From Sipunculus nudus (taxonomy: Eukaryota; Annelida; Sipuncula; Golfingiida; Sipunculidae), in contig CM049313.1 of NCBI GenBank assembly GCA_026874595.1, forward strand, positions 22,438,008 through 22,502,007: DNA of 64,000 nt. Direction: 5' to 3'. The position numbers and the translations under genes are program-made. Of the stretch, positions 4,091 through 57,911 are shown piece by piece. Within the stretch, counting starts at the first letter, position 1. Each line of letters begins with the position of its first letter. Below the pieces are notes generated by a model. That model was not told the DNA's origin, did no database searches, and saw only the letters and a program-made list of their open reading frames with translations.

Positions 4091-4221
4091 AACGTTTCCT
4101 CTCTTTCCCAACTGGCCTCTCCAAAAAATCAAGTTCAATTTCCTATATTTCCAGGAAATGTAAATGGTATTATTGAATTCTTGAACTGTATAAATATTTG
4201 CAAACGTACAAATAGACAAAT

Positions 4222-4577
4222 ACTAGAATTCTGCATTCTAAGGAATGCATAACTCCGCCATGTGGGGGTCCCTTTTGTTGGACGCTCCCAAAACCATGTT
4301 TGCATATGCTTATTCGGTCCTTATTCCCAGGTTCATTCGCGCATAAGTTTTCTACATTAGTGAATATTCATTGATGGCGTTTCTGTGTCCGAACTATGTA
4401 TTAGATTCCACACCAAAATCTATTCGATTATTCATTGGCCTAATACCGAAATGCCCTGAAAATTTCATCAGATCCGTTAGTGATTGCGTGAGTTATGTTA
4501 TGACAAAACACAAACACACACAGGCAAACAAACACACGAACGGGAGTGAGCGCATACTCTCCTAGCGGAGGCAATAT
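4222..4577 (-). repeat. Dispersed repeat family R1, copy 2
   Basis: A near full-length reverse copy of about 356 bp. It begins CTAGAATTCTGCATTC, AAGGAATGC, then ACTCCGCCATGTGGGGGTCC, and ends CTCCTAGCGGAGGCAATAT. It contains the CA-rich block (ACACAAACACACACAGGC) that in plus-oriented copies appears as a TGTGTGTTTG stretch. Length and both ends agree with copies at 8301 and 26695, so this is one of the best references for family boundaries. Confidence 0.85.
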
Positions 4578-8300: not shown

Positions 8301-8657
8301 ACTAGATATCTACATCCTAGGATATACAATCCTCCGCCATGTGGGTTGTCCCTATTATGGAATACTCGTAAAACTGTGTTTGCCTTCACTTAATCGGCCC
8401 ATATTCCCAGGTTCATTCAGCATAAGTAATTGTACATTTTTTTTTTATTTTTCCTCGATGACGTTCTTGAATCCGGATCATGTGCCGAATCCACAACAAA
8501 TTCTAATCGATTCTTCATTGTCCCATTCCCGAAAAGCCCTGAATATTACATAAAAATCCGTTTTTGATTGCTTTTTTCGTTATGTTGTGAACAAATACAC
8601 GGATACAAACACACTCACGAACAGGGACGAAAGCATATCCTCCCTGCGGAGGCAATT
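8301..8657 (-). repeat. Dispersed repeat family R1, copy 3
   Basis: A near full-length reverse copy of about 357 bp, starting ACTAGATATCTACATCC, with TCCGCCATGTGGG next to the decayed hairpin, and ending CCCTGCGGAGGCAATTAAA. The hairpin (CATCCTAGGATATAC) differs in sequence from GCATTC/GAATGC but remains partly palindromic. A (TA)n tract abuts the GGCAATT end within 6 bp. Confidence 0.85.
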
Positions 8658-8658
8658 A

Positions 8659-8838: not shown

Positions 8839-8975
8839 TGTTACGGGGTGACATGAAAGCGGACCGTTTGCTTTGCTAGCGAAGCGGTTGGTACGCCGGA
8901 CTTGTGCGCCATCCACATGGGTTCGAATCTGGGATCGGCCCAATGTTTTCCCCTGAACACTTTGTCTTAGTAACA
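8839..8975 (+). mobile_element. tRNA-like unit with TGTTAC/GTAACA ends, copy 1
   Basis: Begins TGTTACGGGGTGACATG and ends TCTTAGTAACA. Inside is a tRNA-like segment with GCGGTTGGTACGCC (A-box-like) and a B-box GGTTCGAATCT at 8920-8930. A diverged copy with the same order and ends is at 9128-9252. It could be a SINE, or part of a larger terminal-repeat element spanning both units. The anticodon arm is not convincing, so it is not called as a tRNA gene. Confidence 0.6.
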
Positions 8976-9127: not shown

Positions 9128-9252
9128 TGTTACGGGGTGTCATAAAAGCGGACCGAACTCCCTCGCTAGAGAAGCTTGCTTTACTCCACCGACATGGGTT
9201 CGAATCCAGGATCGCCCAAGGATTTTCCCCTGAACAATCGGTTTTCGTAACA
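9128..9252 (+). mobile_element. tRNA-like unit with TGTTAC/GTAACA ends, copy 2
   Basis: Begins TGTTACGGGGTGTCATAAAA, shares GCGGACCG with copy 1, has a B-box GGTTCGAATCC at 9197-9207, shares TTTTCCCCTGAACA, and ends TTTTCGTAACA. The A-box area is more decayed than in copy 1. The two copies lie 289 bp apart in the same orientation. Confidence 0.6.
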
Positions 9253-13270: not shown

Positions 13271-13452
13271 TAAGTATATTACAAAAGATTATAAAAATAT
13301 ACTGTTTATAGCTGTTAAACTCCCATGTAAGATTCACTAGAGATCTGGTATGTGTTCCTTGACCAAGCATGTGAAAATCAAAATAAATTCTACACCGAGT
13401 GTAATTTCTTCAGAATCGAGTCATACAAGTCACACAGCTACGTATCAGCTAT

Positions 13453-13940
13453 GTCAACACAACGCAGGGTCAGCGTTGTAGTACAATCAAGAGATGCTAG
13501 TATCAACAGGGCGCAGGGTGAGCGTTATAGTGTAATCAAGATACCCTTGTGTCAACAAGACGCTCGGTCATCGTTGTAGTGTAATCAAGAGACCCTACTG
13601 TCAACACGACGCTCGGTCAGCGCTGTTGTGTAATCAAGACACCCTAGTGTCAACACGACGCTCATTCAACGTTCGGGTGTAATCAAGTGACCCTGGGGTC
13701 AACATGACGCTTGGACAGCGTTGTATTGTTATCAAGAGAACATATTGTCAACACGACGCGGGTCAGAGTTTTATTGTAATCAAAAGACCCTTGTGTCAAC
13801 ACGACGCTCGGTCAGCGTTGTAGTGAACTCATGAGACCATAGTGTCAACGATACGCTCGGTCGGCGTTGCAGTGAAATCAAAAGGACCTATTGTCAATAC
13901 GACGCCCGGTCGGCGTTGGAGTGTAATCAAGTTATACCAT
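13453..13940. repeat. 49-bp minisatellite, about 10 diverged copies
   Basis: The unit starts GTCAACACGACGCTCGGTCA, continues GCGTTGTAGTGTAATCAAGA and ends with GACCCTAGT. Starts at 13453, 13502, 13551, 13600, 13649 and onward to 13893 give a 49-bp period with at most a one-base slip. Copies differ by several bases each, so the array is old. No protein frame is maintained, since 49 is not a multiple of three. Confidence 0.95.
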
Positions 13941-16329: not shown

Positions 16330-16642
16330 ACCCATCCGCCGCTTCCCCGTTTGTGTGTATGTTTGTGTGTTTCTTTACAAAATAACTCATGCAATCATGA
16401 ATGGAATCTCATGAAATTTACAGGACATTTCTGGAACGGGCTAGATAGGAAAAGTTTACATTTTGCTGTAGATCCGGGGATTAATCCGGATTCGGGACCG
16501 TCATCAAGGAATATTCACAATATACAGTCACTTATGCACGAATGAACGTGGGAATATGCGCAGAATAAGTAAAGCATCCCAACATTGGGACCCCCTATCC
16601 CACACGGTGGAGGCTTGCATTCTTAGAATGCAGATTTCCAGT
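16330..16642 (+). repeat. Dispersed repeat family R1, copy 4
   Basis: Contains TGTGTGTTTCTTTACAAAAT, AACTCATGCAATCATGAATGG, CATGAAATTTACAGGACATT, AGATCCGGGGATTAATCCGG, ATGCACGAATGAACGTGGG and GGTGGAGGCTTGCATTC, then the palindromic end and TTTCCAGT. The left end is eroded (CCGCCGCTTCC). A frame from 16351 to the TGA at 16543 is open, and its peptide (CNHEWNLMKFTGHF...SLMHE) resembles those of the other copies. Confidence 0.85.
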
Positions 16643-17917
16643 TTTAAATTCACTCTCCACCAAAACATCTTCACCATTAAAGTTTGATGCTGGGATGCCT
16701 TTAAAAAGCTACTATCTTCTAGATTGCAAATATTTTCCTAGGAGGGCCCATTACTCCCACTTTAAATATAAAATATGTGCTTGAGCATTCCTTTACTTCT
16801 CCCAACAATTCTAGAGACCCTGAAATGTGTAATTAAATGCACCAAAATGCACCAGTTATATCCCGACACACATCATATGATGTATCATCTCCTAGCCGGG
16901 TCTTGCTTCGCAGTGTAAAATGCTTTTCATGGGCATCCTACATGAGCATCAAGTAATATCTAGATAGTTTCATAACACTCCCAACTAGACATTTATTGTC
17001 AAATTCGATTGGTAAAGGTCGTAGGGGTACTACGTGAAATACATTGACATCATTATTAATAGTCCATGTCTCGCGATTAAATTTTGTAAATGAGACTCAT
17101 TTATCTTTAATCAATTTAAGAATTTTATTAAATGAAAAACGCCATATCGATTAAAGTAAGTCCTGCTGAGTCTAAAAGATGAGGAATGACCTCGGATTTC
17201 CCGTCCGTGGTTTGTTATTATGTCTCATCATGAATGCACCTCTTATTATGTAAACAACCGCGTGGACCTAAATATAATCACGTACATATTCGTAGGTATC
17301 AAAATCTGACAACATGGAACATGTCAGTTATGATATGTAACCACAAGAATTACGTGTATAGGATATTGTATAATCGCCGGTCCCTGCGTAAGGTCACCAA
17401 CCGGAAGTGATGTCAAGGACGTCCACGCATGCCTAGTGGCTACGGATATTGGTCCCTGTTAGACCGACAAGTAGAAACCCACGTAGATTCCGACAGTATC
17501 ACCTGTTAACAGTTCCGGCCGGAAGTTGGGGATTGGTAATTAGCATACCTAGGATGCAATGGTACGTGAATGGGATTTAATAGCATTGGTCAGGCTCGCA
17601 ACGAACGCATAATAGGCCCATTGTTCCTAACAGTAAACACGACAATCAATCTGGTATAAAACAAACAGGTCATTCAGCTCGAAATCCTGTTTTCTCAAAT
17701 ATTCTCAAGAGATCAGATGTTATTCTGTGTGTGATTATTCAGTTGATATTGTGAACAAATGCTATGAATAATTCAGATTCCACAATAATAAAATTAGCAA
17801 ACTGCGCAAATAAACTTTCTATTTATATTTTACAAGTAACTGTTGTGTTGCGTCAGCGTTGAATGCAAGGTGATCCAGAAACGTATAATGACCTGGCGTA
17901 CTGCACGGACATATCGA
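16643..17917. other. Non-coding stretch, nothing recognised
   Basis: AT-rich intergenic-type sequence. No repeat end, RNA gene or coding signature seen. Confidence 0.4.
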
Positions 17918-18284
17918 TTAATTGCCTCCACTAATAAGGTATGGTTAATCCCCGCTCGTGTGTGTTTGGGTGTGTGTTGTTGGGTGGGTGTTTGTTCACA
18001 ACATAACTCTTGCAATCATGAACAGAACTTCATGAATTTTCAGGCATTTCGGGTTTGCGCCAATAAAGAATCGATTATATTTATGTTTGGATCCGGATTT
18101 AATAACGTCATTAAGGAATAATAACTAATGTAAGGTCAGTTCTAAAGAATAAACATGGGAATATGGGCCGTATAAGTGAACGCAAGCACGGTTTTTGGAA
18201 CATACCAGAATATAGATCGACCCCCCACCCCCACCCCCCCACACACACACATACACACACACATTGCGAAGGCTTGCATTCTAG
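17918..18284 (+). repeat. Dispersed repeat family R1, copy 5 (with CA/CCCC expansion)
   Basis: Starts TTAATTGCCTCCACTAATAA and carries TTGTTCACAACATAACTC, GCAATCATGAACAGAACTTC and ATGGGAATATGGGCCG. The normally G/C-rich 3' phrase GGACCCCCACATGGCGGAGG is replaced by a CCCCCACCCCCACC and CACACACACA run before GCGAAGGCTTGCATTC. The terminal hairpin is broken. Confidence 0.8.
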
Positions 18285-19440: not shown

Positions 19441-19904
19441 TGAACACTTAAGATATGCGTTTTTGTTTTCGCCTTAACGGAGTATCAGGGAGACGAGGTC
19501 CTTATCTGTCACACACTCGACTCTTTTTAAACACTGACGGCAAATTTCTTCTGATTTATATAATTCTTTCGGCACAGAAACAAAGAGTAAAACACGATTA
19601 GCTGAATGTTGAACTACACGGAAATTTAACGGGTGCATGAAAAAGGGACATGCTCTGTGACCAAGATACAGGGACATGTTATTCTAAGTTACAAAAGAGT
19701 TTGGTAATTCGTAAGGGAGTAACACTTTACACTGTCTGGCAATTCTTTTGCATTTTAATACTGGGAACAGTTTCCTTGTCTGATTACAAAATAAGGTAAG
19801 ACTGTAAGAGTAAACGCTATGCATGCCACACCGGACATTATTCTTGAATGATAATGTATCGTACATACTTGAATACTTACATGCGCCCAAATATATAGAA
19901 CAGA

Positions 19905-20510
19905 GGCAACCACACATGTAATACAGAGGCACACACATCGGGCACAGAGGCACACACACATAGAACAAAGGCACACAGATCGGCACAGAGGCACACACAT
20001 ATAGAACAGAGGCGCACAAATGTGTTACAGAGGCACACGTATATGGCTAAGAGGAACAAACATATGGCAAGAGGCATTCACATCGGACACAGAGGCACAC
20101 ACATATAGAACAGAGGCACACACATGTGGTACAGAGGCACACGTATATGGCAAAGAGGAACAAACATATGGCAAGAGGCATTCACATCGGACACAGAGGC
20201 ACACACATATAGAACAGAGGCACACACATGTGGTACAAAGGCACACGCATATGGCAAAGAGGCACATACATATGGAACAGATGCACACATATCGGGCACA
20301 GAGGCACACACATAGAATAGTGGCACACACATGTGTTACAAAGGCACATACAGAGGACACATGCAGTAGCACATACAGAGGGAACAAAGGAGCAGATACA
20401 CTCATGTGTAACATAGGATACACAAATATAACACAAAAGCTCACACGTATGATACGGGGCACACATATGACACGGACACACACGTTATACACGGACACAC
20501 ATACGTAACA
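19905..20510. repeat. CA-rich array with about 21-bp subunits and 104-bp higher-order period
   Basis: The basic unit is AGAGGCACACACATATAGAAC and variants. A longer block starting GAGGCATTCACATCGGACAC occurs at 20071 and 20175, a 104-bp period made of about five subunits. The array decays to the right (20340-20510). Both strands stay open for 162 codons (20020-20508 plus, 20025-20513 minus), which follows from the 21-bp unit lacking stops. A weaker related patch is at 20690-20860. Confidence 0.9.
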
Positions 20511-23229: not shown

Positions 23230-23295
23230 TTCTGTAATCTTTACCCACAATGCACCAGGCTTCTAAATACAACAACGGCGTATACACATAATGTT

Positions 23296-23490
23296 GGTAT
23301 AAGAGGGCAATGTAGTCCGTTAAATTATGTCGGACAAGAATCATTTCAAGGCAAATTACATAAACATAGGTGTTTTTGTGGTAAGGGACTCACGGAATAA
23401 GTAATATTTTGTAAGGATACGACTGTGTAATGTAAACAGAAAGTGTTTCCTTGAAATGTAATAAATTTTGATTGTATAAGTTTGACATTT
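23296..23490 (+). repeat. Diverged dispersed repeat pair C, copy 1
   Basis: ATGTAGTCCGTTAAATTATG, GACAAGAATCATTTCAAGGC, AATTACATAAACATAGG, GTAAACAGA and TTCCTTGAA are matched in order by 38686-38880. The resemblance may begin earlier with CCCACAAT (23247 and 38629). No shared long open frame is seen. Confidence 0.7.
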
Positions 23491-24905: not shown

Positions 24906-25600
24906 CCCAAACCGATAATAAAACTCTGCAGATGTACTTACTTAGTTAAGAATTAGATAAGTCAGCATTAAAAATGGAAGCGGTTACATCCACGAAAAAA
25001 CAGTCATTCATTTTAATTCGTACAACATACATTTACCGATCGAAAATAGATATTAAATACATTTGGATTTCTACTATTATCAGAGTCATGGGGGAATAAA
25101 CTTATAAAATGTTATCCGGTAGTCAGGTAATGTTATTCCAGAAGAACTTGCAGACACTTAAGTAATTACAAAATAATTCTGCGTCTATTTATCTAGGAAA
25201 CCTGAATAAAAGGATAAATCATAATTAATCATCTAAAATATCTGAATGTTTTGGTTAATTTGGATCATACAAAAATATTTTTCATCGAAATAAAGTCCTC
25301 GGTAGATGGCGAGTTTTTATTACATTTAGACAATCAATGTAAAATTTTACATTACTAGGAAAACAATTCTTGAATTTGAGCAACGAAAGGTTAAGTCCGT
25401 TTTGCTTGATACAAATATGCATCTTTAAAAAGAAGCTACGTTAGAATTCCAGTAAAGAACATAGTACTTCGCCGAACAATCTACATACCAAAAAATGTTA
25501 TAGAAATGAATACCTTTAAATACTTCCATAAAATGTTCTAAACAAATCTTTTATAAATTAAAGGTTGAAAATTCTTTCCTTTCTCTTGGAATTTGATTAT
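24906..25600. other. AT-rich non-coding stretch, nothing recognised
   Basis: No motif, repeat end or coding signature identified. Confidence 0.45.
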
Positions 25601-25920
25601 AACTGCCTCCGCCAGTATGGTCTGCGTTCATTCACGTTCAAGTGTGGGTATGGGTGTTTGTGTGGGTGATTGTTCACAACAGAACACATTCAATCTTGAA
25701 CGGAATCTCATTAAAGTTTCAGGTCATTTCGGGAATGAAGTAATGAAAACTCGATTAGAATATGGTGTGGATCAGGCACATGATGGGGTCCTGGAACGTC
25801 ATCACGTAATATTCACAAAAGAAGAGTCACTCATGCGCGAATGAACCTGGGAATATGGACCGAATAAATGAATGCAACACATGGCGGGCTTGCACTCCTT
25901 AGAATGCAGATTTCTAGTAT
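25601..25920 (+). repeat. Dispersed repeat family R1, copy 6
   Basis: Begins AACTGCCTCCGCCAGTATGG and carries TGGGTGATTGTTCACAAC, GAACGGAATCTCATTAAAG, GTGTGGATCAGGCACATGAT and AATGAACCTGGGAATATGG. It ends GGCGGGCTTGCACTCC, TTAGAATGCAGATTTCTAGT. The 3' GGACCCCCACATGG phrase is partly deleted. A frame ends in SLMRE followed by TGA, as in other copies. Confidence 0.88.
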
Positions 25921-26694: not shown

Positions 26695-27030
26695 ACTAGA
26701 AATCGGCATTCTAAGGAATGCAAGCCTCCGCCATGTGGGGGTCACTATTGTTGGATGCTCCCAACCCGTGTTTGCTTTCATTTAATCGAACCATATTCCT
26801 TGGTTTATTCGTGTATGAGTGACTCTACATTTGTGAATATTCCTTGATGAATTTTCTGAATCTGAATCATCATCCGGATCCACACCAAATCTAATCGATT
26901 CTTCAATGGCCCATTTCCGAAATGACCTGCAATTTTCATGAAATTCCGTGTGAATGTGTGGGTTCTTTTAAAAAAAACACACACACATACAAACGGGGAT
27001 GAACGCATACCCTCCCGACAGAGGCAAAAT
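26695..27030 (-). repeat. Dispersed repeat family R1, copy 7
   Basis: Begins ACTAGAAATCGGCATTC, then TAAGGAATGCAAGCCTCCGC and CATGTGGGGGTC. It ends ATACCCTCCCGACAGAGGCA. It keeps all internal family phrases in reverse order. On the minus strand a frame ending at 26805 reads FMKIAGHFGNGPLKNRLD and ends SLIHE plus stop, matching the other copies. Confidence 0.9.
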
Positions 27031-33949: not shown

Positions 33950-34072
33950 AAAGTCGGAACACTCCGTATGGGAAACGAACCCATGACCCTCCGATTGCCG
34001 GTTGTTAACTCTACCACTGAGCTAACAGGGATCACCAACTGCCTCTGTGTGCCAGCACTATTTCATAGGAGC
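33950..34072 (-). mobile_element. tRNA-like sequence (SINE head or tRNA pseudogene)
   Basis: Read on the minus strand, TTAGCTCAGTGGTAGAGTT (A-box, D-arm) is followed by an anticodon-region GGCAATCGG and by ATGGGTTCGTTTCCCAT, a perfect 5-bp T stem with B-box GGTTCGTTTCC (33971-33981 on the plus strand). The anticodon stem does not close to five pairs around a seven-base loop, and the acceptor stem is not evident. It is therefore a pseudogene or SINE head, not a tRNA gene. Confidence 0.65.
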
Positions 34073-37810: not shown

Positions 37811-38685
37811 AAGACAGAAAGCAGTTTGTTACACTGAATCAGTGGGATTAGGGCATTCCGCATCTTTCAATTTTTTATTCTCAAAGAGTCAGACATTACA
37901 AAGGGTTCCTTTGTTCCTAGAGAATCTGAAACAATTTGAATCTATTAATGAAATATGTGGTAAGAAGGGTTTGAAATAAACTTTTGTCATATCTTTGCTT
38001 ATCAATTTACAAATTATCTTTAGGCATGTTATAGTTTAGCCAGTCTTCATTATATTAAAAGCACCATCCGTCGTATTTGGAATAAAAGTAAACCGGTCTT
38101 CAGATTCAAAATAGCGAACGGTTAGACGCTATAGTTATAAATATTATAACAATCATTTTGTCGCAAAAAAATAATGAACATCTACCAAGTAAGTTATGTT
38201 GTATACGTTAAACCATTTAGCCATACATCCGTACAACTACAACCAACAAAATAACCGGCTTACACTCTATTTTTAATAACTTAATCAGAAGATTCCTGGA
38301 AAAAGGAAATTTTCCAAAACCACAACCACTGTTGCTTGGACCCTTCTTTCTTCCTGATTCAGTTTCGCTCTCAGTTACGTCAATGTCTGTATTTTAAAGA
38401 GAATCATCCTCCACAATACTTCCTTATTTGAGTCGATAAAACAGGAGTCACTTTCTAAAAAGATTTATAATCAGGTTTCAGTGGCGCGCAGGGATAAGAT
38501 ATATAAATCTATTTTCACGCCGATCGCATCTGTTCCCATGACAATGAGACTGATGACACACTACGCAGAAATGCACTAATAAAGTCCGACTCTGCTAGTT
38601 AGGGATTGTGGGTATAAGGAAATCCTTTTCCCACAATTCTCTGGGAATTCTTAATATAACAGCGGAGTAGGTATTAATTGAAGTA
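37811..38685. other. Non-coding stretch, nothing recognised
   Basis: No repeat end, RNA gene or coding signature identified. Confidence 0.4.
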
Positions 38686-38880
38686 AAGAGGATTATGTAG
38701 TCCGTTAAAATTTGTAGGATAAGAATTGTTTTAAGGCTAATTACATGAAAATGGATGTTTTATGGTCAGGACTTCATCGAATTAGTAATCTTTGCAAATC
38801 ATGCGCATATACCCAGTGTAAACAGACGAAGATTCCTTGAACTGTGACCAATGTTGATTTTGGGTTTTGACGGTTGAGAC
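38686..38880 (+). repeat. Diverged dispersed repeat pair C, copy 2
   Basis: TTATGTAGTCCGTTAAAATT, GATAAGAATTGTTTTAAGGC, TAATTACATGAAAATGG, GTGTAAACAGA and TTCCTTGAACTG match 23296-23490 in order and orientation, 15.4 kb away. Confidence 0.7.
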
Positions 38881-39660: not shown

Positions 39661-39986
39661 TAAAATAAGAGTGTGGTATCATGTACATCCCCCCGATGAC
39701 GTGGACTAGATCATTCTTTTTTATCAAATCAGAAGGTAAACAAAACAAAACCACACTTGTATTTTCAGTGAATACAGATGACTGTGGTCGCCCAGAGGGC
39801 CATGCATTAGATTACACCAACACTTAACTAGGAAACATCGCCGTTTGGTCGGTCATCCAGTTAGAAATGAAAAAAAGCTCTCTCTTTCGCTTCATCGGTG
39901 CTTCCGATTGGTGACAGTTGCAATTGAAGTAGCGCCATTTCGGCCCTCTAACATCAGAAAATCTACCGTTAAAAATAACGGTTAGG

Positions 39987-42900
39987 TAGGTAGCGAGACT
40001 TATTATGTTTTACCCTTGTTATACCTCCGCTAGGTAGCGAGAGGTATTATGTTTTACCCTTGTTATACCTCCGCTAGGTAGCGAGAGGTATTATGTTTTA
40101 CCCTTCTTATACCTCCGACGGTAGCGAGAGGTATTATGTTTTACCCTTCTTATACCTCCGACAGGTAGCGAGAGGTATTATGTTTTACCCTTCTTATACC
40201 TCCGCCAGGTAGTGAGAGGTATTATGTTTTACCCTTCTTATACCTCCGACAGGTAGCGAGAGGTATTATGTTTTACCCTTCTTATACCTCCGCTAGGTAG
40301 CGAGAGGTATTATGTTTTACCCTTGTTATACCTCCGCCAGGTAGTGAGAGGTATTATGTTTTACCCTTCTTAAACCTCCGCTAGGTATCGAGAGGTATTA
40401 TGTTTTACCCTTGCTATACCTCCGCCAGGTAGTGAGAGGTATTATGTTTTACCCTTGTTATACCTCCGCTAGGTAGCGAGGGGTATTATGATTTACCCTT
40501 GTTGTACCTCCGCTAGGTAGCGAGGGGTATTATGTTTTACCCTTGTTGTACTTCCGCCAGGTAGTGAGAGGCATTATGTTTTACCCTTGTTATACCTCCG
40601 AAAGGTAGTGAGAGGTATTATGTTTTACCCTTCTTATACCTCCGATAGGTAGTGAGAGGTATTATGTTTTACCCTTCTTAAACCTCCGCTAGGTATCGAG
40701 AGGTATTATGTTTTACCCTTGCTATACCTCCGCCAGGTAGTGAGAGGTATTATGTTTTACCCTTGTTATACCTCCGCTAGGTAGCGAGAGGTATTATGTT
40801 TTGCCCTTGTTGTACCTCCGCTAGGTAGCGAGGGGTATTATGTTTTACCCTTGTTGTACTTCCGCCAGGTAGTGAGAGGCATTATGTTTTACCCTTGTTA
40901 TACCTCCGATAGGTAGTGAGAGGTATTATGTTTTACCCTTCTTATACCTCCGATAGGTAGTGAGAGGCATTATGTTTTACCCTTGTTGTACTTCCGCCAG
41001 GTAGCGAGAGGTATTATGTTTTACCCTTGTTATACCTCCGATAGGTATCGAGAGGTATTATGTTTTACCCTTGCTATACCTCCGCCAGGTAGTGAGAGGT
41101 ATTATGTTTTACCCTTGTTATACCTCCGCTAGGTAGCGAGAGGTATTATGTTTTACCCTTGTTATACCTCCGACAGGTAGTGAGAGGTATTATGTTTTAC
41201 CCTTGTTGTACCTCCGCTAGGTAGCGAGGGGTATTATGTTTTACCCTTGTTGTACTTCCGCCAGATAGCGAGAGGTATTATGTTTTACCCTTCTTATACC
41301 TCCGATAGGTAGTGAGAGGCATTATGTTTTACCCTTGTTATACCTCCGATAGGTAGTGAAAGGCATTATGTTTTACCCTTGTTATACCTCCGATAGTTAG
41401 TGAGAGGTATTATGTTTTACCCTTGTTATACCTCCGATAGGTAGTGAGAGGCATTATGTTTTACCCTTGTTATACCTCCGATAGGTAGTGAGAGGCATTA
41501 TGTTTTACCCTTGTTATACCTCCGATAGGTAGTGAGAGGCATTATGTTTTACCCTTGTTATACCTCCGCCAGGTAGTGAGAGGTATTATGTTTTACCCTT
41601 GTTATACCTCCGCCAGGTAGTGAGAGGTATTATGTTTTACCCTTGTTATACCTCCGCCAGGTAGTGAGAGGTATTATGTTTTTCCCTTGTTATACCTCCG
41701 CCAGGTAGTGAGAGGTATTATGTTTTTCCCTTGTTATACCTCAGACTGGTAGTGAGAGGTATTATGTTTTACCCTTGTTATACCTCCAACAGGTAGCGAG
41801 AGGTATTATGTTTTACCCTTGTTATACCTCCGACAGGTAGCGAGAGGTATTATGTTTTACCCTTGTTATACCTCCGCCAGGTAGTGAGAGGTATTATGTT
41901 TTACCCTTGTTATACCTCCGATAGGTAGTTAGAGGCATTATGTTTTACCCTTGTTATACCTCCGATAGGTAGTGAGAGGCATTATGTTTTACCCTTGTTA
42001 TACCTCCGATAGTTAGTGAGAGGTATTATGTTTTACCCTTGTTATACCTCCGATAGGTAGTGAGAGGCATTATGTTTTACCCTTGTTATACCTCCGATAG
42101 GTAGTGAGAGGCATTATGTTTTACCCTTGTTATACCTCCGATAGGTAGTGAGAGGCATTATGTTTTACCCTTGTTATACCTCCGCCAGGTAGTGAGAGGT
42201 ATTATATTTTACCCTTGTTATACCTCCGCCAGGTAGTGAGAGGTATTATGTTTTACCCTTGTTATACCTCCGCCAGGTAGTGAGAGGTATTATGTTTTTC
42301 CCTTGTTATACCTCCGCCAGGTAGTGAGAGGTATTATGTTTTTCCCTTGTTATACCTCCGACAGGTAGCGAGAGGTATTATGTTTTTCCCTTGTTATACC
42401 TCCGACAGGTAGCGAGAGGTATTATGTTTTACCCTTGTTATACCTCCGACAGGTAGCGAGAGGTATTATGTTTTACCCTTGTTGTACTTCCGCCAGGTAG
42501 TGAGAGGCATTATGTTTTACCCTTGTTATACCTCCGAAAGGTAGTGAGAGGTATTATGTTTTACCCTTCTTATACCTCCGATAGGTAGTGAGAGGTATTA
42601 TGTTTTACCCTTGTTAAACCTCCGCTAGGTATCGAGAGGTATTATGTTTTACCCTTGCTATACCTCCGCCAGGTAGTGAGAGGTATTATGTTTTACCCTT
42701 GTTATACCTCCGCTAGGTAGCGAGAGGTATTATGTTTTACCCTTGTTGTACCTCCGCTAGGTAGCGAGGGGTATTATGTTTTACCCTTGTTGTACTTCCG
42801 CCAGGTAGTGAGAGGCATTATGTTTTACCCTTGTTATACCTCCGATAGGTAGTGAGAGGTATTATGTTTTACCCTTCTTATACCTCCGATAGGTAGTGAG

Positions 42901-45900
42901 AGGCATTATGTTTTACCCTTGTTGTACTTCCGCCAGGTAGCGAGAGGTATTATGTTTTACCCTTGTTATACCTCCGATAGGTATCGAGAGGTATTATGTT
43001 TTACCCTTGCTATACCTCCGCCAGGTAGTGAGAGGTATTATGTTTTACCCTTGTTATACCTCCGCTAGGTAGCGAGAGGTATTATGTTTTACCCTTGTTA
43101 TACCTCCGACAGGTAGTGAGAGGTATTATGTTTTACCCTTGTTGTACCTCCGCTAGGTAGCGAGGGGTATTATGTTTTACCCTTGTTGTACTTCCGCCAG
43201 ATAGCGAGAGGTATTATGTTTTACCCTTCTTATACCTCCGATAGGTAGTGAGAGGCATTATGTTTTACCCTTGTTATACCTCCGATAGGTAGTGAGAGGC
43301 ATTATGTTTTACCCTTGTTATACCTCCGATAGTTAGTGAGAGGTATTATGTTTTACCCTTGTTATACCTCCGATAGGTAGTGAGAGGCATTATGTTTTAC
43401 CCTTGTTATACCTCCGATAGGTAGTGAGAGGCATTATGTTTTACCCTTGTTATACCTCCGATAGGTAGTGAGAGGCATTATGTTTTACCCTTGTTATACC
43501 TCCGATAGGTAGTGAGAGGTATTATGTTTTACCCTTGTTATACCTCCGCCAGGTAGTGAGAGGTATTATGTTTTTCCCTTGTTATACCTCCGCCAGGTAG
43601 TGAGAGGTATTATGTTTTTCCCTTGTTATACCTCCGCCAGGTAGTGAGAGGTATTATGTTTTTCCCTTGTTATACCTCCGACAGGTAGTGAGAGGTATTA
43701 TGTTTTACCCTTGTTATACCTCCGACAGGTAGCGAGAGGTGTTATGTTTTACCCTTGTTATACCTCCGACAGGTAGCGAGAGGTATTATGTTTTACCCTT
43801 GTTATACCTCCGCCAGGTAGTGAGAGGTATTATGTTTTACCCTTGTTATACCTCCGATAGGTAGTGAGAGGCATTATGTTTTACCCTTGTTATACCTCCG
43901 ATAGGTAGTGAGAGGCATTATGTTTTACCCTTGTTATACCTCCGATAGTTAGTGAGAGGTATTATGTTTTACCCTTGTTATACCTCCGATAGGTAGTGAG
44001 AGGCATTATGTTTTACCCTTGTTATACCTCCGATAGGTAGTGAGAGGCATTATGTTTTACCCTTGTTATACCTCCGATAGGTAGTGAGAGGCATTATGTT
44101 TTACCCTTGTTATACCTCCGCCAGGAAGTGAGAGGTATTATGTTTTACCCTTGTTATACCTCCGCCAGGTAGTGAGAGGTATTATGTTTTACCCTTGTTA
44201 TACCTCCGCCAGGTAGTGAGAGGTATTATGTTTTTCCCTTGTTATACCTCCGCCAGGTAGTGAGAGGTATTATGTTTTTCCCTTGTTATACCTCCGCCAG
44301 GTAGTGAGAGGTATTATGTTTTACCCTTGTTATACCTCCGACAGGTAGCGAGAGGTATTATGTTTTACCCTTGTTATACCTCCGACAGGTAGCGAGAGGT
44401 ATTATGTTTTACCCTTGTTATACCTCCGACAGGTAGCGAGAGGTATTATGTTTTACCCTTGTTATACCTCCGATAGGTAGCGAGAGGTATTATGTTTTAC
44501 ACTTGTTATACCTCCGCTAGGTACCGAGAGGTATAATGTTTTACCCTTGTTATACCTCCGCCAGGTGGTGAGAGGTATTATGTTTTTCCCCTGTTATACC
44601 TCCGCTAGGTAGTGAGAGGTATTATGTTTTACCCTTGTTATACCTCCGATAGGTAGTGAGAGGCATTATGTTTTACCCTTGTTATACCTCCGATAGGAAG
44701 TGAGAGGCATTATGTTTTACCCTTGTTATGCCTCCGATAGGTAGTGAGAGGCATTATGTTTTACCCTTGTTATACCTCCGATAGGTAGTGAGAGGTATTA
44801 TGTTTTTCCCTTGTTATACCTCCGCCAGGTAGTGAGAGGTATTATGTTTTTCCCTTGTTATACCTCCGATAGGTAGTGAGAGGCATTATGTTTTACCCTT
44901 GTTATACCTCCGATAGGTAGTGAGAGGCATTATGTTTTACCCTTGTTATACCTCCGATAGGTAGTGAGAGGCATTATGTTTTACCCTTGTTATACCTCCG
45001 ATAGGTAGTGAGAGGCATTATGTTTTACCCTTGTTATACCTCCGATAGGTAGTGAGAGGCATTATGTTTTACCCTTGTTATACCTCCGATAGGTAGTGAG
45101 AGGCATTATGTTTTACCCTTCTTATACCTCCGCCAGGTAGTGAGAGGTATTATGTTTTACCCTTGTTATACCTCCGCCAGGTAGTGAGAGGTATTATGTT
45201 TTACCCTTGTTATACCTCCGCCAGGTAGTGAGAGGTATTATGTTTTTCCCTTGTTATACCTCCGCCAGGTAGTGAGAGGTATTATGTTTTACCCTTGTTA
45301 TACCTCCGACAGGTAGCGAGAGGTATTATGTTTTACCCTTGTTATACCTCCGACAGGTAGCGAGAGGTATTATGTTTTACTCTTGTTATACCTCCGACAG
45401 GTAGCGAGAGGTATTATGTTTTACCCTTGTTATACCTCCGATAGGTAGTGAGAGGTATTATGTTTTACCCTTGTTATACCTCCGATAGTTAGTGAGAGGT
45501 ATTATGTTTTACCTTTGTTATACCTCCGATAGGTAGTGAGAGGCATTATGTTTTACCCTTGTTATACCTCCGATAGGTAGTGAGAGGCATTATGTTTTAC
45601 CCTTGTTATACCTCCGATAGGTAGTGAGAGGCATTATGTTTTACCCTTGTTATACCTCCGCCAGGTAGTGAGAGGTATTATGTTTTACCCTTGTTATACC
45701 TCCGCCAGGTAGTGAGAGGTATTATGTTTTACCCTTGTTATACCTCCGCCAGGTAGTGAGAGGTATTATATTTTTCCCTTCTTATACCTCCGACAGGTAG
45801 TGAGAGGTATTATGTTTTACCCTTGTTATACCTCCGACAGGTAGCGAGAGGTATTATGTTTTACCCTTGTTATACCTCCGACAGGTAGCGAGAGGTATTA

Positions 45901-47567
45901 TGTTTTACCCTTGTTATACCTCCGACAGGTAGCGAGAGGTATTATGTTTTACCCTTGTTATATCTCCGCCAGGTAGTGAGAGGTATTATGTTTTACCCTT
46001 GTTATACCTCCGATAGGTAGTGAGAGGCATTATGTTTTACCCTTGTTATACCTCCGATAGGTAGTGAGAGGCATTATGTTTTACCCTTGTTATACCTCCG
46101 ATAGTTAGTGAGAGGTATTATGTTTTACCCTTGTTATACCTCCGATAGGTAGTGAGAGGCATTATGTTTTACCCTTGTATACCTCCGATAGGTAGTGAGA
46201 GGCATTATGTTTTACCCTTGTTATACCTCCGATAGGTAGTGAGAGGCATTATGTTTTACCCTTGTTATACCTCCGCCAGGTAGTGAGAGGTATTATGTTT
46301 TACCCTTGTTATACCTCCGCCAGGTAGTGAGAGGTATTATGTTTTACCCTTGTTATACCTCCGCCAGGTAGTGAGAGGTATTATGTTTTTCCCTTGTTAT
46401 ACCTCCGCCAGGTAGTGAGAGGTATTATGTTTTTCCCTTGTTATACCTCCGACAGGTAGCGAGAGGTATTATGTTTTACCCTTGTTATACCTCCGACAGG
46501 TAGCGAGAGGTATTATGTTTTACCCTTGTTATACCTCCGACAGGTAGCGAGAGGTATTATGTTTTACCCTTGTTATACCTCCGATAGGTAGCGAGAGGTA
46601 TTATGTTTTACCCTTGTTATACCTCCGCTAGGTACCGAGAGGTATAATGTTTTACCCTTGTTATACCTCCGCCAGGTGGTGAGAGGTATTATGTTTTTCC
46701 CCTGTTATACCTCCGCTAGGTAGTGAGAGGTATTATGTTTTACCCTTGTTATACCTCCGATAGGTAGTGAGAGGCATTATGTTTTACCCTTGTTATACCT
46801 CCGATAGGAAGTGAGAGGCATTATGTTTTACCCTTGTTATGCCTCCGATAGGTAGTGAGAGGCATTATGTTTTACCCTTGTTATACCTCCGATAGGTAGT
46901 GAGAGGTATTATGTTTTTCCCTTGTTATACCTCCGCCAGGTAGTGAGAGGTATTATGTTTTTCCCTTGTTATACCTCCGATAGGTAGTGAGAGGCATTAT
47001 GTTTTACCCTTGTTATACCTCCGATAGGTAGTGAGAGGCATTATGTTTTACCCTTGTTATACCTCCGATAGGTAGTGAGAGGCATTATGTTTTACCCTTG
47101 TTATACCTCCGATAGGTAGTGAGATGCATTATGTTTTACCCTTGTTATACCTCCGATAGGTAGTGAGAGGCATTATGTTTTACCCTTGTTATACCTCCGA
47201 TAGGTAGTGAGAGGCATTATGTTTTACCCTTCTTATACCTCCGCCAGGTAGTGAGAGGTATTATGTTTTACCCTTGTTATACCTCCGCCAGGTAGTGAGA
47301 GGTATTATGTTTTACCCTTGTTATACCTCCGCCAGGTAGTGAGAGGTATTATGTTTTTCCCTTGTTATACCTCCGCCAGGTAGTGAGAGGTATTATGTTT
47401 TTCCCTTGTTATACCTCCGACAGGTAGCGAGAGGTATTATGTTTTACCCTTGTTATACCTCCGACAGATAGCGAGAGGTATTATGTTTTACTCTTGTTAT
47501 ACCTCCGACAGGTAGCGAGAGGTATTATGTTTTACCCTTGTTATACCTCCGATAGGTAGCGAGAGGA
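39987..47567. repeat. 44-bp satellite array, about 172 monomers, with higher-order structure
   Basis: Head-to-tail monomers of the form AGGTAGCGAGAGGTATTATG, TTTTACCCTTGTTATACCTC, CGCT cover about 7.58 kb with almost no length change (one monomer lacks two bases near 40116, one lacks a single T near 46178). Each monomer holds ATACCTCCGCT-AGGT-AGCG-A-GAGGTAT, able to fold into an about 11-bp hairpin with a single bulge. Variants mix CGCTAGG/CGCCAGG/CGATAGG/CGACAGG, TAGCG/TAGTG, GGTAT/GGCAT and TTTAC/TTTTC. Rare variants recur at exact block distances: 616 bp (14 monomers), 1936 bp (44 monomers) and about 2112-2156 bp (48-49 monomers). No open frame of note occurs on either strand. It could be a local tandem expansion or part of a chromosomal satellite (centromeric or subtelomeric); the window cannot tell. 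Confidence 0.98.
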
Positions 47568-48278
47568 AATATTATTTGTAAGCGATTGATGTTTTTTGAG
47601 TTCAAGCACTGATACACGCTTATATTACATTGTCTAACGTTAATATTTGGCAAAAGTCCTGCGTGCCCTCCTGATAATTTTACCGCCATATCTATTACTC
47701 TAGATTATGCTTTTTTTTTTTATCGTGTATATTCGATTTCCTAACAACTATTGTATAGAAAACAGTTGATTATGACAAAATTCTAGATAGGATGACACCC
47801 AAAAAGCCTTTATTTATTTTTTTGTTTTGGAGATAATCGTGTAAACAAAATACGTCTTTTTGTTCAGATCCTTTGGCTTTTTGGGACATCGTTATTTTTA
47901 TAGCAGCCAAAGACAAGGGCTATTCACTGGTTTTAGGGCTCCGCTTTTTCCACAACTCCCTAGTGATTCGGACTTAGGTATTTGAACCGTGACACGCACC
48001 ACAAAGTTTGACTGGGATCCTAGCGCAGGTGAAGATGTAGTCTCGGCCTACTTTTCTTATTTTATTTCTTTCTAAGCAACGTTGTGTTGAAAGTATGCTA
48101 TTCAATCCCAATAGGTTAAAAATATAAATTTTTCTGTTAAATTATCAAGAAACATTAATAGAAAAGGGACTGAAATGGATGGTATACACCAATCCTTTAT
48201 GTTTCACTTGGAATTTTTATGATAATAAACTATGTCTGTGGTTCTACATTCTTTCTTGTCAGCAAACGGATAACAATT
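47568..48278. other. Non-coding stretch right of the satellite
   Basis: AT-rich with T runs at 47711 and 47817. No feature recognised; the satellite stops sharply at GAGAGG/AAATATT. Confidence 0.45.
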
Positions 48279-48560
48279 AAGTTAGATACGCATGCATTTA
48301 CGTGTTATTGTGACGTTACGGTTAACCCCAACCCCCCCCAACCCCCCAATAAAATTAAGTTAGATACGTATGCATGTACGTGTAATTGTGACGTTATCGT
48401 TAACCCCTCCCCCCAATAAAATTAAGTTAGATACGCATGCATGTATGTGTGATTGTGACGTTAACGTTAATGCCCCCCCCCCCCCACAATTAAATTAAGT
48501 TAACTACGCATGCATGTATGTTTATATGTGACGTAAACGTTAGCCCATCCCCAACCCCCC
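48279..48560. repeat. Four-copy minisatellite with C-rich spacers
   Basis: Units start AAGTTAGATACGCATGCATG at 48279, 48356, 48423 and 48497 and contain TGACGTTAACGTTAA followed by variable C runs. Spacings of 77, 67 and 74 bp differ mainly by C-run length. GCATGCATG and AACGTT palindromes are inside each unit. Confidence 0.9.
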
Positions 48561-52532: not shown

Positions 52533-52830
52533 GACTAGAAATTCTAAGGAATGCATACCTTCGCCATATGGTGGGGGCCATATTGTGGGACGCTCCGAAA
52601 ACGGTGTTTGCATTCACTTATTTGGTCAACATTCATAGGTTCCTTAATTCGTGCATAAATGATTGTACAGTTGTGAATATTCCTTAATGACGTTCCTGAA
52701 TCCGGATAATGTGCCGGATCCTAACAAATATCTAATTTATTTTTCATTTGCCCATTCCTAAAATTCTTCGGATTCTGATCATGATTGCAGTATGAGCAAT
52801 TACCAACACACACTCACATACAAAAGCAAT
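52533..52830 (-). repeat. Dispersed repeat family R1, copy 8 (one end truncated)
   Basis: Begins GACTAGAAATTCTAAGGAATGC (part of the hairpin deleted), then CCTTCGCCATATGGTGGGGG. It holds the family phrases in reverse, with GCCGGATCCTAACAAATATC. The CA-rich block (ACACACACTCACATACAAA) is reached but the CCCTCC...GGCAATT end is absent. Confidence 0.82.
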
Positions 52831-57694: not shown

Positions 57695-57911
57695 ACAGGA
57701 GGATATGCTTTCATCCCAGTTCGTGTGTGGTGTTTGTTCACATCATAACTCACGCAATCATGAACGGAATCTCATTAATTTTTCAGAACATTTCGGAAAA
57801 GGGTCATTGCGGAATCGGCTGGAGTTTGGTGTCGATCCGATTTCAGGAATGTAATGAAGGAATTTTCACAAATGTAGAGTAACTTATGCACCTTGAATGT
57901 AGATTTCTAGT
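57695..57911 (+). repeat. Dispersed repeat family R1, copy 9 (decayed)
   Basis: CGACAGGAGGATATGC, GTTTGTTCACATCATAACTC, GCAATCATGAACGGAATCTC and ATTTTCACAAATGTAGAGTAAC are present. The segment from the CGAATGAACC phrase to the GCATTC hairpin is deleted, leaving TTGAATGTAGATTTCTAGT. Confidence 0.78.

Follow-up and report, generated by a model that had tools for sequence, protein, structure and literature searches.

Nested block duplications in a 44-bp minisatellite array of Sipunculus nudus

A tandem array of a 44-bp repeat lies at positions 39987..47566 of a 64,000-nucleotide stretch of the Sipunculus nudus genome (assembly GCA_026874595.1, contig CM049313.1, positions 22,438,008 to 22,502,007 of the forward strand), here called the window and numbered from its first letter. 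The array contains nested tandem duplications of 44 and of 48 or 49 repeat units (monomers), each in two copies, and a duplication of 14 monomers can be seen more weakly. Most probably it is a non-coding, probably neutral minisatellite in which in-register recombination among the repeats has driven growth and is driving homogenisation. Growth by copying blocks is the normal mode for such repeat arrays, and this one is ordinary as minisatellites go, though its history is unusually legible. Single growth events and their sizes can be made out directly in this compact natural record, as can one crossover junction. Although it leaves beliefs about tandem-repeat growth unchanged, it offers a useful small case on which models of the process can be tested.

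Minisatellites consist of head-to-tail units of roughly 10-100 bp, with a total length in the kilobase range. Tandem Repeats Finder (TRF) describes the present array as 172.3 copies of a 44-bp period with 94% matches over 39987-47566, or 7.6 kb. Cyclic alignment to the consensus divides it into 172 monomers, followed at the right edge by a truncated one; short of that edge, the alignment has two gaps of one base each. As in other minisatellites, the repeats are variant: the 172 monomers comprise 54 distinct sequences, there are duplicated blocks of 14, 44 and 48/49 monomers, and two block copies differ in length by one monomer. A minor variant is carried by at least 10 monomers at each of seven columns (1, 8, 15, 26, 32, 35 and 44). 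Monomers are on average 92.8% identical when all pairs are taken together, and 94.8% when only neighbours are compared. These figures describe one assembled haplotype, and no strand is assigned to the array or to any feature mapped within it. An earlier, sequence-only reading called the array a satellite, which is too strong a term for a single array of 7.6 kb; minisatellite fits.

A block that has been duplicated once leaves a sharp-ended diagonal as long as its own offset. The sequence-only reading had predicted block diagonals in an all-against-all comparison of monomers, and the comparison does show them, strongly at 44 and 48/49 monomers and more weakly at 14. The first copy of the 44-monomer block (40558..42493, monomers 14-57) and the second (42494..44429, monomers 58-101) differ at 19 of 1936 bp at a lag of 44 monomers (99.0% identity), and identity just outside is 91.3% on one side and 90.7% on the other. 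The 48-monomer block occupies 43330..45441 (monomers 77-124) and 45486..47552 (monomers 126-172); its second copy has one monomer fewer and ends at the array's right edge. Monomers 77-101 and 126-150 differ at 15 of 1100 positions at lag 49 (98.6%), with the preceding monomers 64-76 at 93.2%. Further right, monomers 102-124 and 150-172 differ at 4 of 1012 positions at lag 48 (99.6%). The change of lag from 49 to 48 marks one duplication whose copies differ in length by one monomer. An offset of 48 had been claimed for the entire block. This holds for the right half, but the left half is better described by 49 (98.6% over monomers 77-101, as against 97.0% over monomers 77-95 at lag 48). Because the length of each diagonal is close to its offset and identity drops outside it, each block represents a single two-copy tandem duplication.

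Identical monomers recur at the same lags. Pairs are identical in 32 of 128 cases at lag 44 (25.0%), 29 of 124 at lag 48 (23.4%) and 23 of 158 at lag 14 (14.6%); most of the lags printed (1-80 and the top 12) give 2-10% identical pairs. Values above 10% are also found at lags 1, 15, 22, 26, 34, 49, 81, 82, 93, 107 and 129; among these, lags 49, 93 and 107 correspond to the same blocks shifted or added together. The best segment scores are 97 at lag 44, 84 at lag 48 and 26 at lag 14. Shuffling the order of the monomers gives maxima of 18 (200 full shuffles) and 24 (200 local shuffles), the latter barely below the score at lag 14. With a second scoring, lags 44, 48 and 14 reach 72.3, 55.3 and 14.1, and the null maxima are 11.5 for full shuffles, 14.1 for local shuffles and 54.1 for resampling by a first-order Markov model (60 runs of each). 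The Markov null reuses the real transitions between neighbouring monomers and is harsher than the shuffles. By this scoring lag 44 stands above all nulls, and lag 48 is narrowly above the Markov maximum.

The first copy of the 14-monomer block spans 41306..41921 (monomers 31-44) and the second 41922..42493 (monomers 45-57), where the fourteenth position falls beyond a later junction. At lag 14, monomers 31-44 and 45-58 differ at 11 of 616 bp (98.2%), and identity just outside is 91.6-91.7%. Eight related units of 12-14 monomers are found in the array, five of which are accounted for by copying within the two larger duplications. When the second copies of both large blocks are removed, three alignments in the 80-monomer remnant score at least 12 (22, 21 and 19), all among 14-monomer units; the maximum among shuffles of this remnant is 12 (n=100). 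The evidence for these units is the order of their rare variants, their mutual identity alone being unimpressive.

Rare variants also reveal how the duplications are nested. The marker CGATAGTTAG occurs at 41391, 42007, 43327, 43943, 45483 and 46099, six positions already given in the earlier reading. Since the 44- and 48/49-monomer duplications each copied the 14-monomer pair, six copies result from three events. The successive spacings of 14, 30 (44-14), 14, 35 (49-14) and 14 monomers are all explained, in either order of the large events. Three further pairs of markers are also located as reported: CCAGATAGCG at 41261 and 43197, GTACCGAGAGG at 44521 and 46632, and GTTATGCCTCC at 44725 and 46836. 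The T described as lost near 46178 is missing from column 33 of monomer 141 (start at 46146), where the alignment has a one-base gap. For the 7-mer CGAAAGG, the reported spacing of 1936 bp is correct but the positions need adjustment, to 40599 and 42535 rather than 40601 and 42537; two more copies of the 7-mer lie outside the array (25384 and 39146).

Growth of this kind could proceed by unequal sister-chromatid exchange or by synthesis-dependent strand annealing between repeats in register. The 14-monomer duplication would have come first, followed by the 44- and 48/49-monomer duplications, which would have carried the pair along. In-register unequal exchange predicts a hybrid monomer at the junction, in which the block's last monomer supplies the left part and the monomer preceding the block supplies the right part. 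For an exchange at the 44-monomer event, the predicted parents are monomers 101 and 13, and junction monomer 57 (42450..42493) is exactly that hybrid. It reads as monomer 101 on the left and as monomer 13 on the right, with the switch after column 12-34. The fit to a single crossover is exact, the sequence is unique in the array, and 168 of the 29,241 ordered monomer pairs could yield it.

Differences between block copies are unevenly distributed. They amount to 32 of 2288 positions inside the 14-monomer tract (98.6% identical) and 6 of 1760 outside it (99.7%; Fisher p 0.0004, for a split chosen post hoc and with the stretch 77-101 used in two comparisons). Both changes at common columns and singletons contribute to the excess, which is consistent with local exchange among like units.

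Random in-register block duplication and deletion, together with point mutation, was also simulated, with power-law block sizes of up to 60 monomers and four settings of 100 runs each. These settings were picked near the observed identity after nine settings of six runs each, and switches fell only between whole monomers. A top diagonal scoring at least 97 arose in 15, 9, 31 and 16 of the 100 runs, and it was accompanied by a second diagonal of at least 84 in 8, 3, 26 and 13 (3-26%). The simulation is a plausibility check, and its model is not a close fit.

Several results weigh against growth by in-register recombination as set out here. Among simulated runs within 2 points of the observed mean identity, both diagonals appear in 1 of 54, 1 of 44, 6 of 54 and 8 of 54 (2-15%), and the simulation yields arrays of 27-35 distinct monomers on average, compared with the 54 observed. 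With the second scoring, lag 14 ties the local-shuffle maximum and fails the Markov null, and lag 7 scores 8.7, below the full-shuffle maximum of 11.5. A clean chimera is found at one of the two junctions examined, out of three in all. At the other, monomer 125 (45442-45485), which precedes the second copy of the 48-monomer block, matches its expected right parent, monomer 76, only from column 16. The first seven bases of monomer 125 match the truncated end monomer, and the whole can be constructed if that monomer supplies the first 7 columns and monomer 77 those from column 5 on. With 77 as a parent, however, monomer 126 should resemble 78, but it resembles 77. Finally, the monomer stretches 33-57, 77-101 and 126-150 have 9, 7 and 8 odd sites and are thus equidistant, so that either order of the two large duplications is possible.

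The score at lag 7 bears on a variant of this history, in which the array is a higher-order repeat at birth. In such a history, 14-monomer blocks, perhaps with 7-monomer blocks before them, would have seeded those of 44 and 48/49 monomers, and the unit would be on its way to becoming a new repeat. A 7-monomer duplication is suggested by 40338..40645 (monomers 9-15) and 40646..40953 (monomers 16-22), possible copies that are 98.4% identical, with flanks at 89-90% at lag 7. The 7-monomer step stays within the range of the shuffles, which makes this history less probable, and overall it is unlikely.

The growth model of the sequence-only reading had two parts. Duplication of multi-monomer blocks is borne out, but the likeness to alphoid higher-order repeats is not, the blocks being present in two copies and the monomers 92.8% alike. 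In human alpha-satellite, blocks of several variants are duplicated as units with near-identical copies, and this much is shared with the array. Alphoid higher-order blocks are described as reiterated at 97-100% similarity and as consisting of monomers that are 50-70% alike (PMC7463522). Here, in contrast, the large blocks occur twice and monomers are about 93% alike. Block copies do exceed monomers in likeness (98.2-99.6% against 92.8%), yet the monomers are closer to each other than alphoid ones. In place of many head-to-tail multimers, the large diagonals are one offset long and the 14-monomer units are interrupted; and where an alphoid-type array is very long and centromeric, this one ends within 7.6 kb.

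A true higher-order repeat of alphoid type with a homogenised 14-monomer unit is a reading for which the eight 12-14-monomer units speak. They share a similar order of variants, their pairwise identity is 97.2-99.5% (gaps uncounted), and three of them persist once the large duplications are undone. Yet the units are interrupted by monomers 58-74, 103-110, 125 and 151-158, and the five explained as copies are passengers of the larger duplications. Their likeness is also matched by random 14-monomer blocks, which under gapped alignment have a mean identity of 96.4% and a 95th percentile of 99.7%, a draw that includes true copies and is raised by them at that percentile. Such a repeat is very unlikely.

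Closer parallels to a minisatellite grown by in-register recombination can be found among human minisatellites. Block duplications are described in some alleles of MSY1 and INS, both of which have ordered variant repeats like the present array, and intra-allelic duplications in other minisatellites (PMC2674676). Boundary switches and conversions at MSY1 have been attributed to synthesis-dependent strand annealing (PMC2599865). The present array differs from these loci in scale. It has 172 repeats, compared with 77 in the progenitor allele of the MSY1 study, and blocks of 44 and 48 monomers, compared with changes of 1-3 units there. The array also differs from MSY1 and INS in being known from one allele.

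Another explanation for the large blocks is that an assembler joined sequence from two haplotypes, or from two separate places of a repeat graph, within the array and so created one or both of the large duplications. The identity of the copies, 98.6-99.7%, could fit two haplotypes of an outbred invertebrate, and mis-joins in identical k-mers would likewise yield in-register chimeric monomers. The longest exact runs shared by copies, 556 bp at a lag of 1936 bp and 512 bp at 2111 bp, exceed short reads. On the other hand, the duplicated blocks are internal to the array, and no copied flank is seen in a self-comparison with the array masked. The smaller 14-monomer block is nested in the large ones, and one modern long read, if such reads went into the assembly, could span 7.6 kb. 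An artefact of this kind, which would be compatible with growth by recombination for the smaller blocks, has a small probability, and the duplications appear to have arisen in the living genome rather than in assembly.

Mobile elements can contain and amplify tandem repeats. In oysters, Helitrons carry central tandem repeats, and satellite arrays associated with Helitrons are common in Crassostrea gigas (PMC8268682). The same study describes oyster satellites as short arrays scattered in the genome rather than forming large blocks, in which they resemble the present array, and its families CgiSat01 to CgiSat28 (of 52) include no 44-bp monomer (PMC8268682). A small hairpin with 7-bp arms (39965..39982, from the centroid fold) abuts the left edge of the array; no function is inferred for it, and the 71-base stretch that includes it folds no better than shuffles (z -0.68). 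Unlike the oyster satellites, however, this array has no recognised mobile-element ends. Of the 15 best matches between the flanks (about 2.5 kb per side), every one below E 0.16 is rich in TA or ATA, and the rest are short (17-43 bp, E 0.16-1.4) and no better than expected by chance. On the left, the closest dispersed match (38625-38859 with 23239-23473) stops 1.1 kb short of the array. The flanks of about 2.5 kb thus share no element ends beyond simple repeats and chance matches, in comparisons that did not include a search aimed at Helitrons, and inverted repeats inside each flank are only small or TA-rich. On these 15 flank-to-flank matches, amplification of the array within a mobile element was set aside as quite improbable.

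Function at the sequence level, for instance as an array of binding sites or as a hairpin-forming element under selection, could be suggested by 7-bp inverted arms in the consensus monomer. The hairpin is nevertheless little above shuffled sequence (z -1.07, -1.18 and -1.64), and a C at column 15, present in 52 of the 173 monomers, disrupts it (z +0.57). A hairpin or RNA function was rejected, with monomer folds near those of shuffles and 39800-47800 free of Rfam matches at E up to 1, and selected function in general is highly improbable. The array probably lacks a function and is probably non-coding and neutral.

No description of the 44-bp repeat was recognised in the literature searched, at the level of titles and abstract openings. 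Elsewhere in the window, a search for monomer remnants gave only matches of E 2.7 or worse. In a search for related sequence, a degenerate 35-mer has no exact match in viral_contigs or genome_contigs, and 41200-41900 has no blastn match in plasmids or phages; these prokaryotic, viral and plasmid collections say little about a eukaryotic repeat.

The window has a G+C content of 30-43% per kb and abundant TA, CT and ATA repeats. Three reading frames with a start codon reach at least 150 amino acids (199, 162 and 162); one overlaps a CT repeat and the other two a 21-bp array. Stop-to-stop frames of 80 amino acids or more number 77; ten of them were scanned, and these gave no Pfam match at E up to 0.1. 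Across the whole window, Rfam gives one marginal tRNA match at 33960-34031 (29.6 bits, gathering score 29, E 0.042), a site without a call from ARAGORN.

Other tandem repeats are also present. The 21-bp units at 19893-20352 are described by TRF with 87% for a period of 104 (five units less one base) as against 71% for a period of 21; by plain lag identity the gap is smaller, at 67.4% (104) and 63.1% (21). This array may be a small multimer repeat. At 13452-13931 a 49-bp unit is repeated 9.8 times. TRF also lists periods of 98, 147 and 244 there, but plain lag identity peaks at 49 (70.5%), so no clear multimer structure is indicated. About four copies of a repeat with a period of 67-73 bp, each unit ending in a C-rich run, are found at 48270-48560, 0.7 kb to the right of the 44-bp array.

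A dispersed family of about 190-370 bp makes up about 4% of the window. Its nine copies lie on both strands (1335-1596, 4207-4577, 8301-8658, 16344-16645, 17919-18213, 25600-25920, 26695-27030, 52541-52764 and 57698-57891) and are about 68-83% alike where aligned. A 67-bp inverted repeat at 2234-2300 and 2441-2507 (87%, partly TA repeat) resembles the ends of short inverted-repeat transposons. Finally, two related copies (74%) at 8839-8975 and 9128-9252 contain a stretch that we take to be tRNA-promoter-like, and the pair is possibly a short interspersed element (SINE).

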